A stretch of 64,000 nucleotides of DNA from Rhodoplanes tepidamans. GTDB lineage: Bacteria; Pseudomonadota; Alphaproteobacteria; Rhizobiales; Xanthobacteraceae. The position numbers and the translations under genes were made by a program. The notes under the pieces are model-generated. The model was not told the origin of the DNA, did not search any database, and worked only from the letters and a program-made list of their open reading frames with translations. Location: the NCBI RefSeq assembly GCF_030813915.1, contig NZ_JAUSUJ010000002.1, positions 248,001 through 312,000 on the forward strand, in the 5' to 3' direction. Shown piece by piece: positions 24,708 through 27,741 of the stretch (its first letter is position 1; every line of letters begins with the position of its first letter).

Positions 24708-25301
24708 GAGTGATCCTCGGGCGATCCTCGGCGCCGACCGGATCGTCGGGTGCGCGAGGCGAGGTACGCTGCCCGGCCGCCCGGCGCAAGGGGACGTGCC
24801 CGCGTGGCGGATGCGCTCGGTACGTGGGTCCGCTCGCCCGCGCGGTTCGTGGCGGCGCTGGGGGCGGAACAGCGCCCGTTCGGCCCCGACGCGCGTTCGG
24901 TGAGGCTGCCGTGCTCGGGACTGCGGGGTCGGCATCGTCGGGGAGCTCGGGATTTCGGTCGGCGAACGCGCCGCCGAACTGCTCGCACGCGGCGCCCGGA
25001 ACGCCGTCCAGTCCCTCGTGCGCGCCGCCGCGCCCTCCTGGCCCGATTCGCGGCCGAAATCGCCCCGACCGAGCCCACCGGCGACCACTCTCGGCCCTCC
25101 AGGTCTGAAGCGGGTTTCTTGCCCGGCCTCGCAGCGAAGGCCCGGGACGATGTGGCCGGGAGCCCAGCTGCCGCTTCACGCTCCATCCGGATCATGATTG
25201 CTGTCACGGGTCGGCTACACGCTCGATTTTACGACTGAATCTTCGTGTACCCCCCTTGCTTTGGCAGAACGTTTAATGAACATTGGATCGAGACGGCTGG
25301 G
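24708..25301. other. Gap between MFS transporter and methyltransferase block
   Basis: 594 bases without a supportable gene. The left part (24708 to about 25180) is very GC-rich with low-quality Arg-rich open frames on both strands, none recognisable. At about 25190 the composition shifts to AT-richer sequence that continues into the methyltransferase gene, which I take as the left edge of the acquired block. No direct repeat, tRNA end or integrase is visible. Confidence 0.45.
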
Positions 25302-26483
25302 ATGACGATGAAGATTGCTGGATTGTTTGCTGGCGTCGGTGGGCTTGAGCTCGGGCTGCATCAAGGCGGCCACGAGAGCGTTTTGCTGTCCGAAATTTGG
25401 GAGCCCGCACGTGCGGTCCTTGCGGAGCGGTTCTGCGACGTTCCGAACATCGGCGATGTCGAAAGGTTGAAATCACTGCCTGCCGATGTCGGTCTGCTCA
25501 CCGCCGGTTTTCCTTGCCAGGACCTCAGCCAGGCCGGCAGGACGGCGGGAATCAATGGCCGAAAGTCGGGCCTGGTCGGCCACGTTTTTCGGCTGATCGA
25601 CCAAAGCAGGCCTCGATGGGTGTTGCTTGAGAACGTGTCATTCATGCTGCAACTCGATCGCGGCAGCGCAATGGACAGGCTGGTGTCCGCCTTCGAGGAG
25701 CGCGGCTATCGATGGGCGTACCGGGTCGTCAACTCGCTCGCGTTCCTGCCGCAGCGACGGGAACGTGTCTTCTTCCTCGCGAGTACCGAAGGCGATCCAT
25801 CGGACGTTTTGCTCGTGGACGAGGCGGAGCCTCGGGTTCAAGCAACCGATCTCCGCACCCACGCGCACGGCTTCTACTGGACGGAAGGCACTCGCGGCCT
25901 GGGCTGGGGACCCGACTGTGTTCCGACGTTGAAGAATGGCTCGACGGTCGGGATTCCGTCGCCACCCGCAATCCTCCTGCCGAACGGCGAGATCGTCACA
26001 CCCGATATACGCGATGCGGAACGGCTCCAGGGATTCCGGGCAGATTGGACGAAACCGGCCGCCGCTGTCGGGCGCGCTTCGTTCCGATGGTCGTTGGTCG
26101 GCAACGCGGTGACTCGACCGGTGGCGGCGTGGATCGGGAGGCGTTTGACGAAACCTGGTCGCTTCGATCGCTCGCGGGATTCGGCAACGTTCACGAGCGT
26201 GCGTTGGCCGCGGGCAGCCCGCTTCGACGGCGAGACACGGCGCGAAGTCCACATCTCCGCCTTCCCGGCTTGGAAGATCAGACCGCCGCTACAAGAGTTT
26301 CTGAAATACGAACCAACCTTGTTGTCGGAACGGGCAACCGCTGGCTTCCTGTCGCGAATCGAGAAGAGTTCACTTCGTTTCGTGCCCGGGTTCAAGGAAC
26401 GTGTCCGCTCCCATCTCGACCATGTACGCGCCATCGACCGGTTCGTCGACGATCGATTTCCCCGCCTTCACGCCGCGGAATGA
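25302..26483 (+). CDS. DNA (cytosine-5-)-methyltransferase
   Basis: 393 residues from ATG 25302 (an ATG at 25308 is nearly as good). C5-MTase motifs in order: I GLFAGVGGLELGL, IV GFPCQDLSQAG with the catalytic Cys, VI LLENVSF, VIII QRRERVFFLAS, IX RDAERLQGF and X GNAVTRPVAAWIG. The target recognition stretch between VIII and IX is short (about 80 residues), while about 110 residues follow motif X. The recognition site cannot be read. First gene of a three-gene block with vsr and an unknown gene. Confidence 0.95.
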   Translation: MTMKIAGLFAGVGGLELGLHQGGHESVLLSEIWEPARAVLAERFCDVPNIGDVERLKSLPADVGLLTAGFPCQDLSQAGRTAGINGRKSGLVGHVFRLIDQSRPRWVLLENVSFMLQLDRGSAMDRLVSAFEERGYRWAYRVVNSLAFLPQRRERVFFLASTEGDPSDVLLVDEAEPRVQATDLRTHAHGFYWTEGTRGLGWGPDCVPTLKNGSTVGIPSPPAILLPNGEIVTPDIRDAERLQGFRADWTKPAAAVGRASFRWSLVGNAVTRPVAAWIGRRLTKPGRFDRSRDSATFTSVRWPRAARFDGETRREVHISAFPAWKIRPPLQEFLKYEPTLLSERATAGFLSRIEKSSLRFVPGFKERVRSHLDHVRAIDRFVDDRFPRLHAAE

Positions 26484-26902
26484 AGCCCCCTGTTTGCGAA
26501 CGCCCGATAGACCCGAAGCGCTCCGCGTTGATGCGTCGCGTGAGGCAACGCGGCACCAAGCCGGAAGACGACGTAGCAGTCGTGCTCCGCGAGCTGAGAT
26601 TGGGCTATCGGCGCAATGTGAGATCGCTCCCGGGCTCTCCTGATTTCGCCAACAAGCGGAGGAAGTGGGCCATCTTCGTGAATGGATGTTTCTGGCACAG
26701 ACACGAGGAGTGTGCCCGAACCACGACGCCGTCGCGCAATCGGGACTTTTGGGTGGCGAAGTTCGACAGCAACGTCCGAAGGGATGCAATCAAAACCGAG
26801 GCACTCCGAAAGCTGGGCTTTCGCGTCGTGGTCGTTTGGGAATGCGAGACGATCGATGCGCCCCGGATCAGACGGCAGCTCCGATCGTTGACCTCACGGT
26901 AG
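26480..26902 (+). CDS. vsr: Very short patch repair (Vsr) endonuclease
   Basis: 140 residues. Nicks DNA at T:G mismatches that arise by deamination of 5-methylcytosine, and so accompanies C5-MTases. Seen: LMRRVRQRGTKPE at the N-terminus, LPGSPDF with the catalytic Asp, and IFVNGCFWHRHEEC with the zinc- and catalysis-linked Cys and His residues, then the conserved WECE. The ATG overlaps the MTase stop (ATGA), so expression is coupled. Confidence 0.95.
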   Translation: MKPPVCERPIDPKRSALMRRVRQRGTKPEDDVAVVLRELRLGYRRNVRSLPGSPDFANKRRKWAIFVNGCFWHRHEECARTTTPSRNRDFWVAKFDSNVRRDAIKTEALRKLGFRVVVVWECETIDAPRIRRQLRSLTSR

Positions 26903-26907
26903 TCGTC

Positions 26908-27741
26908 ATGGCGAAATCGAAGAATTCCACGACGAGACGTTTCTCGACCGAAACCCGATCTCTTACCGAGGACAGTATTGGGCGAGAGCTCTCATGGGCC
27001 GGGCCGAGGGATGCAGCCGCGGACGGTAGCAGCACCGACAAGAAGAACTACGCCGAGTCCTTGTCTCGTGCACTGGCTCAGCGATTCGCAGATGCGCTCC
27101 GCAGCTCTTTTTCCGGGATTCTGCCGGACGCCTCCGGGGCGGGACAGGAATCCAAGGCGCGAACCGGGAAGGGTCTGAAGAAGCTCGACGTGAACTATTC
27201 CACCATCGAGCTCGGGCTCGGCCTCGGCGTATCGATCAAGACCATCAATTTCCGCGACGCGAAAACGAAGCGATATACGAAGAACTACACCCGCGTCGAC
27301 AACGAGCTGAGAGCCGAGGCGGCGGATTATCACGAACGACAGCCTTATGCGGTACTCTGCGCCGTCGTCTTCCTACCTTTGGATGCCTGCGACGACGGGA
27401 GTTCCGCTCCGTCCAGCTTCGGGCAGGCCGTTCAGATTCTCCGCTATCGGGCCGGTCGTGAAAAGCCGGTCGACGATTCGACATTGTTCGAGCGGATTCT
27501 CATCGGCCTCTATGACGTGAGCCCGAACGACTTCGGACGTGTCGCGTTCTTCGACGTCATGGACGCACCGCCGCGAACCGGTCGACCGGCATCGTTGATG
27601 TCGTTCAAAGACGCCATCGGAGCGATCGTCGATGCCTACGACCAGCGGAACAAAACGACGTTCAAGTGGGCGGAAGGTACGACCGAAGTCGTCGTGCCCC
27701 CCGAACCGGAAGCCGAGGAAACCGAAGAAGACGGTGGCTGA
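26908..27741 (+). CDS. Unknown protein, candidate restriction endonuclease
   Basis: 277 residues, not recognised as a named family. It starts five bases after vsr and shares the lower GC. The N-terminal 25 residues are Ser/Thr/Arg-rich and the C-terminus is acidic (PEPEAEETEEDGG). The middle contains LDVNYSTIELGLGLGVSIKTINFRD, where D, E and a hydrophobic-x-K element could form a variant PD-(D/E)xK nuclease core. No helix is long or hydrophobic enough to span a membrane. Position after a C5-MTase and Vsr is the usual place of the cognate restriction enzyme; this is inference. Alternative: an orphan MTase accessory or control protein. Confidence 0.6.
   Translation: MAKSKNSTTRRFSTETRSLTEDSIGRELSWAGPRDAAADGSSTDKKNYAESLSRALAQRFADALRSSFSGILPDASGAGQESKARTGKGLKKLDVNYSTIELGLGLGVSIKTINFRDAKTKRYTKNYTRVDNELRAEAADYHERQPYAVLCAVVFLPLDACDDGSSAPSSFGQAVQILRYRAGREKPVDDSTLFERILIGLYDVSPNDFGRVAFFDVMDAPPRTGRPASLMSFKDAIGAIVDAYDQRNKTTFKWAEGTTEVVVPPEPEAEETEEDGG

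Follow-up and report, generated by a model that had tools for sequence, protein, structure and literature searches.

Operons in which a C5-cytosine DNA methyltransferase and the mismatch endonuclease Vsr are combined with a restriction enzyme are known, for example those of NaeI and NgoMIV. Vsr repairs T:G mismatches which are formed by deamination of methylcytosine. For enzymes of the CCGG family (NgoMIV, Cfr10I and relatives), the acid of the (D/E)XK motif is described as relocated to a later helix, giving a PD-XXK-E arrangement (PMC551604, PMC4652773), with a K-x12-13-E spacing and, in the putative site of BsaWI, an upstream glutamate E92 (PMC4652773).

The window analysed here, a stretch of 64,000 nucleotides from Rhodoplanes tepidamans, carries a block of three plus-strand genes (M, V and R). 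The block is flanked upstream by a minus-strand frame and on the other side by a minus-strand gene, which we take to be lepA. The features of the block are as follows:

25302 to 26483, plus strand: C5-cytosine DNA methyltransferase gene (M); PF00145 with 146.6 bits, TIGR00675, PADLOC PDLC03324 with 615 bits.
26480 to 26902, plus strand: Vsr mismatch endonuclease gene (V); PF03852 with 74.4 bits, TIGR00632 with 115.3 bits, above the TIGR00632 cut-off.
26908 to 27741, plus strand: proposed restriction endonuclease gene (R), 277 AA, putatively XhoI-related and of PD-XXK-E type, based on linkage, structure model, conservation and profile comparisons.

In the Pfam profile search, M scored above the PF00145 cut-off; its open frame begins at 25245 and an alternative start is located at 25308. 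The start of vsr overlaps the 3' end of M by 4 bases, and its stop codon (26900-26902) precedes R by five bases, as had been described in the initial annotation for this 277-residue ORF. Translation of ORF 26908-27741 (plus strand) gives a protein which contains LDVNYSTIELGLGLGVSIKT. The reduced GC content reported earlier for the block was also recovered (0.624 for M, 0.605 for vsr and 0.598 for R; 0.612 for the three genes together versus 0.717 for the window), and an AT-richness of this degree was reached by 2 of 616 segments of 2440 bases. Scans for promoters and terminators gave no signal above shuffled sequences, and no second candidate restriction gene besides R is present within the three genes. 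In two genomes of the same genus without an R match, a partial second lepA 3' end is found a few hundred bases 3' of the full-length lepA (L119:3802-3929 and L121:836-1005), perhaps a trace left by insertions at this site.

Copies of R with 94% and 77% identity were found in two related genomes. The dN/dS value in comparison to the 94% copy, from Rhodoplanes elegans, is 0.076, and the gene is under strong purifying selection. Because of these copies and this dN/dS value, R is not a chance ORF. With the protein as query, Pfam, PADLOC and NCBIfam (E ≤ 1) gave no family, and neither PHROGs (E ≤ 5) nor the PDB sequences (E ≤ 10) contained a match; the protein was also sought in phage records together with PHROGs and was found in neither. 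Of 67 aligned family members, 14 were weakly matched by the PADLOC REase_II family PDLC03558 (best E 0.00022), and matches to any other library family were confined to a single member or two, such as DUF2486 (one member, E 1.2e-4). PDLC03558 itself was found in none of 299 genomes and 14 control genomes searched for it. A literature search, with REBASE outside its scope, found no publication describing the family; family neighbours may already be entered as putative in REBASE.

Relatives of R were collected by direct whole-genome searches, which detected R in 3 genomes each when 60 close genomes and 385 genomes of the class were screened (the own genome being counted in both), and by a pattern scan of 84,980 species genomes, which gave 101 relatives. 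For the neighbourhood count, the best 80 of the 101 were kept; these include near-copies and thus do not represent 80 independent events. A methyltransferase gene adjoins R in 76 of these 80 loci. In the four others, R starts at most 64 bases from the upstream contig end, with about 3.6-5 kb present downstream. The partner is of the C5 type, matching M of the window, in 18 loci, 16 of which also have Vsr, and of the N6 type in 58 (by match to the methyltransferase of locus L004, which is N6 type by Pfam). Gene orders in the C5 group vary between M-V-R, M-R-V, R convergent to V-M, and others. Relatives located mostly away from methyltransferases, which would have refuted the initial annotation, were not observed. 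With a methyltransferase beside it in 76 of 80 loci, R behaves like a restriction enzyme, and its earlier assignment as the restriction enzyme of the operon gains computational support from sequence and model.

Mobile elements were inspected as well. Seven plasmid records matched R and, of six inspected, four have R directly after an N6 methyltransferase gene, while on a Mesorhizobium amorphae plasmid (L009) R is convergent with such a gene. The relative on a Pseudomonas sp. FeN3W plasmid (L006:5875-6693) is divergent but shows D, S-x-K and E completely; neither methyltransferase query matched within about 6 kb on either side, and this relative is possibly solitary or associated with a different kind of partner. 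When the family and the distant groups described below are taken together, R is annotated as ‘hypothetical protein’ in all 18 annotated plasmid records, and a methyltransferase gene adjoins in 17 of them. Viral contigs gave no match with the window's R protein alone and none with group I (see below), whereas the family alignment detected three loci, each with R after an N6 methyltransferase gene. Two further loci differ from the usual layout. In genome G333, R is apparently split, its C-terminal part facing V-M and its N-terminal part lying on a different contig (L010/L024, L012). In Anaeromyxobacter oryzae (L025:5863-6722), additional partial matches to a C5 methyltransferase and Vsr follow the M-V-R set.

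A search with a family member, repeated with one of its distant matches, gave three further groups (I, II and III) of proteins with 296-357 residues. Twelve of their loci were inspected (L096-L098, L108-L116). In every one, the gene is annotated as hypothetical and overlaps or abuts a preceding N6-type methyltransferase gene, the partner being annotated as N-6 methylase in nine and as ‘subunit M’ in L097, and recognised by a PADLOC profile match in L096 and L098. In profile comparisons, the R family matched group I with E 2.4e-12 and a score of 89.0 (maximum of 100 column shuffles 27.2), and groups II/III with E 3e-8 and a score of 63.2 (maximum of 100 column shuffles 21.6), both E-values referring to a single comparison. 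Taken by itself, the C5 clade has only weak links to group I (E 5e-4) and to groups II/III (E 0.003). The PADLOC family PDLC03540 weakly matched three group I proteins (best E 0.0014).

Proteins of the XhoI family (PF04555) were found in 7 of 398 genomes, and six of these proteins were aligned. Groups I-III together matched XhoI with E 3.3e-6 (single comparison), a probability of 87.8% and a score of 48.2, compared with a maximum of 22.0 in 100 column shuffles; with just three group I sequences, the values were E 2e-4 and 46%. Direct profile comparison of the R family with XhoI was not significant (E 0.19), and its shuffle null was unusable due to one outlier of 132.6 in 100. The XhoI link is therefore transitive, via the three groups, and spans at most 48-56 aligned columns. 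PF04555 matched neither the window's R nor 67 family members at E ≤ 0.1, and its gathering cut-off was not reached; the lone group I match, L098, obtained 11.7 bits versus a cut-off of 25. Through these intermediate groups, a distant relationship of the R family to XhoI is likely. Avoidance of the R target site was also considered. Among palindromic hexamers, CTCGAG had the lowest score over 400 kb of the own genome (0.52 of the expected number), but it is also avoided (0.39; 399 kb) in a genome of the same genus without an R match, hence, the test is uninformative about M-V-R. In the same-genus genome G003, ACCGGT occurs 3 times versus 127 expected, and CACGTG and CAGCTG are rare as well, which suggests that other restriction systems are present there.

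The active site was analysed in 88 aligned family rows. The codons concerned are:

27187 to 27189, plus strand: D94, proposed metal-binding Asp; D in every one of the 88 aligned rows of the family.
27232 to 27234, plus strand: S109, where the canonical acid would be located; S in 87 rows and D in the remaining one, versus E in all six aligned XhoI-family rows.
27238 to 27240, plus strand: K111, proposed catalytic Lys; K in 88 of 88 rows.
27316 to 27318, plus strand: E137, proposed relocated acid, in the model helix 124-144; E in 87 rows and D in the remaining one, versus T in five and S in one of the six XhoI-family rows.

No substitution occurs at D94 or K111. Column 109 holds Ser where D or E is expected, so that the canonical acid-x-Lys motif is lacking, and column 137 lies in the helix which follows the S-x-K strand. 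At the sequence level, R thus displays the PD-XXK-E arrangement: D and K are kept, the acid before x-K is lost and an acid is present in the following helix. In the joint alignment, S-x-K of the R family is placed over E-x-K of XhoI, and E137 over T or S; all six XhoI-family proteins combine E-x-K with T or S at column 137. The earlier proposal that Ser takes the (D/E) place before x-K agrees with these columns. Conversely, column 137 is E or D in all 100 rows with S-x-K or D-x-K (88 from the family, 12 from the groups), and the 12 proteins of groups I-III have S-x-K throughout. On the simplest reading of these sequences, the carboxylate shifted between strand and helix, in one direction or the other, and D and K stayed. 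The sole row of 88 with D-x-K, from the M. amorphae plasmid (L009:5845-6612), keeps the helix Glu and could be an intermediate state. E101, named as a catalytic residue in the initial annotation, was rejected as its column falls short of the 88% conservation that was required across the rows. The altered site itself stands with Ser109; the replacement acid had been left unnamed, and conservation indicates E137, which is probably the relocated catalytic acid completing the site of R.

A different functional acid would leave R a PD-(D/E)XK restriction enzyme, with E133 of the same helix or E81 in the catalytic role and E137 being structural. Column 133 is acidic in all 88 rows (D in 68, E in 20) as well as in those of the XhoI family, and column 81 holds E in 85 of the 88; an upstream glutamate also has a precedent in E92 of the putative BsaWI site (PMC4652773). 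However, an acid that XhoI rows possess at column 133 in any case does not compensate for the E lost at column 109. Since, of the two helix columns, 137 alone changes reciprocally with 109, E137 is favoured over 133, and a different functional acid is considered rather unlikely.

The AlphaFold model of R (67 aligned sequences; pLDDT 89.9, pTM 0.85) is an alpha/beta protein with a helix at 42-64, strands at 95-99 and 103-112, a helix at 124-144 and a strand at 149-157. The model of an N6-clade member (57 sequences; pLDDT 91.0, pTM 0.89) has the same order; both run from a long helix through a strand pair, which ends in S-x-K, to a second long helix and then to strand, helix and strand. This order agrees with the alpha-beta-beta-beta-alpha-beta core of PD-(D/E)XK proteins, whereas Foldseek against the PDB gave no significant match: none of 310 matches for R and none of 276 for the N6-clade member reached E ≤ 0.001. 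A confident non-nuclease fold, which would have spoken against the initial annotation, was likewise absent among them. Weak matches include acetyl-CoA carboxylase and aminotransferases, and the first ten for R include SfsA, two XisH-type proteins, YaeQ, BstEII and Mus81-Eme1; we take these six to be of PD-(D/E)XK fold and the other four not. In a viral structure library, one unnamed protein matched at E 3e-4. BstEII was considered as the nearest relative and rejected, as the Foldseek matches were weak (E 0.22 and 0.57) and profile searches found no sequence match. In its order of helices and strands, the predicted structure is compatible with a PD-(D/E)XK-type core.

Every library searched lacks a nuclease label for R, and accessory genes travel with methyltransferases too, hence, R might have an accessory role in the methyltransferase operon, as a control protein or a specificity factor, and not be a nuclease. 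Against such a role stand the invariant D and K and the near-invariant E in a model of PD-(D/E)XK order, the distant XhoI-family homology, the lack of a rival restriction gene in the block and the pairing of one family with two chemically different methyltransferases, which together make it very improbable. A modification-dependent nuclease cutting methylated DNA, or a decayed enzyme, as the Ser in the acid place could signal, is hardly credible, since a methylation-dependent cutter next to its own methyltransferase would be suicidal unless the targets differ, and decay is contradicted by the dN/dS of 0.076 and the conserved columns. R is very probably a restriction endonuclease of PD-(D/E)XK-type fold, as judged from sequence and model.

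The change of methylation partner was analysed in a tree of 99 rows with the 12 rows of groups I-III, all N6-linked, as outgroup; the position of its root serves for drawing only. In this tree, all 19 C5-linked rows fall together (100/98), and so do the 12 outgroup rows (100/99). The N6 rows need two changes on the drawn tree, and one in 50% of the bootstrap trees. L006, beside the C5 group, and L011, within it, have long branches, and the tree program flagged long branches that meet. A single C5 group together with N6-linked outgroups suggests that N6 was replaced once by C5 plus Vsr. Because of the long branches, the two N6 changes and the root placed for drawing only, the direction of exchange is one that we infer from the N6-linked outgroups. 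It is fairly likely that, in one R clade, the N6-adenine methyltransferase gave way to one of C5 type together with Vsr.

In the proposed system, M, V and R would constitute a Type II restriction-modification operon; close linkage of the restriction gene to the methyltransferase gene, a criterion for this type, is found in the window operon. M would methylate a cytosine within the target site and V would repair the T:G mismatches left when methylcytosine made by M is deaminated. R would cut the same site when unmethylated, a target shared by M and R being presumed. In the active site, D94 and K111 would occupy their usual places, the acid before x-K would be replaced by Ser109, and E137 of the next helix would supply the carboxylate. 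The R family would derive from the same stock as XhoI, the clade of the window having replaced the N6 partner by C5 plus Vsr. Taken jointly, we lean towards the view that the XhoI stock has a large branch, so far unrecognised, in which the acid was relocated separately from NgoMIV/Cfr10I and which includes intermediate groups with a helix E or D; one clade of this branch then changed from N6 to C5 plus Vsr, so that two methylation chemistries protect one restriction enzyme family, possibly at related targets.

Naming the R family would complete the restriction systems of the plasmid records with an adjoining methyltransferase gene and may yield new target specificities. If the kinship to XhoI is true, R and XhoI would form a natural pair for studying the movement of a carboxylate within one fold, and also the change from one protecting methylation to another. 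The undescribed nuclease family suggested by the initial annotation is indeed absent from the libraries searched, but it is apparently distant kin of XhoI, and its arrangement is known from NgoMIV/Cfr10I-type enzymes (PMC551604, PMC4652773).

XhoI and PaeR7I (PF04555) resemble R in being restriction enzymes of similar length, in the common columns D94, K111, N126 and an acid at 133, and in an adjoining frame with an NPPY motif (read by eye) typical of N6 methyltransferases. They differ in that the XhoI rows have E-x-K and a helix T or S, whereas the R family has S-x-K and a helix E. With NgoMIV, Cfr10I, Bse634I and BsaWI, R shares, by its sequence, the acid in a later helix (PMC4652773, PMC551604). 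The spacing of K111-x25-E137 is longer than the K-x12-13-E given for CCGG enzymes (PMC4652773), the R-(D/E)R recognition triplet of that family is absent from the R sequence, and no enzyme of this type was among the PDB sequence matches up to E 10. Compared with the C5 methyltransferase, Vsr and restriction enzyme operons of NaeI and NgoMIV, the restriction family differs according to the PDB searches, and the gene content and logic are the same.
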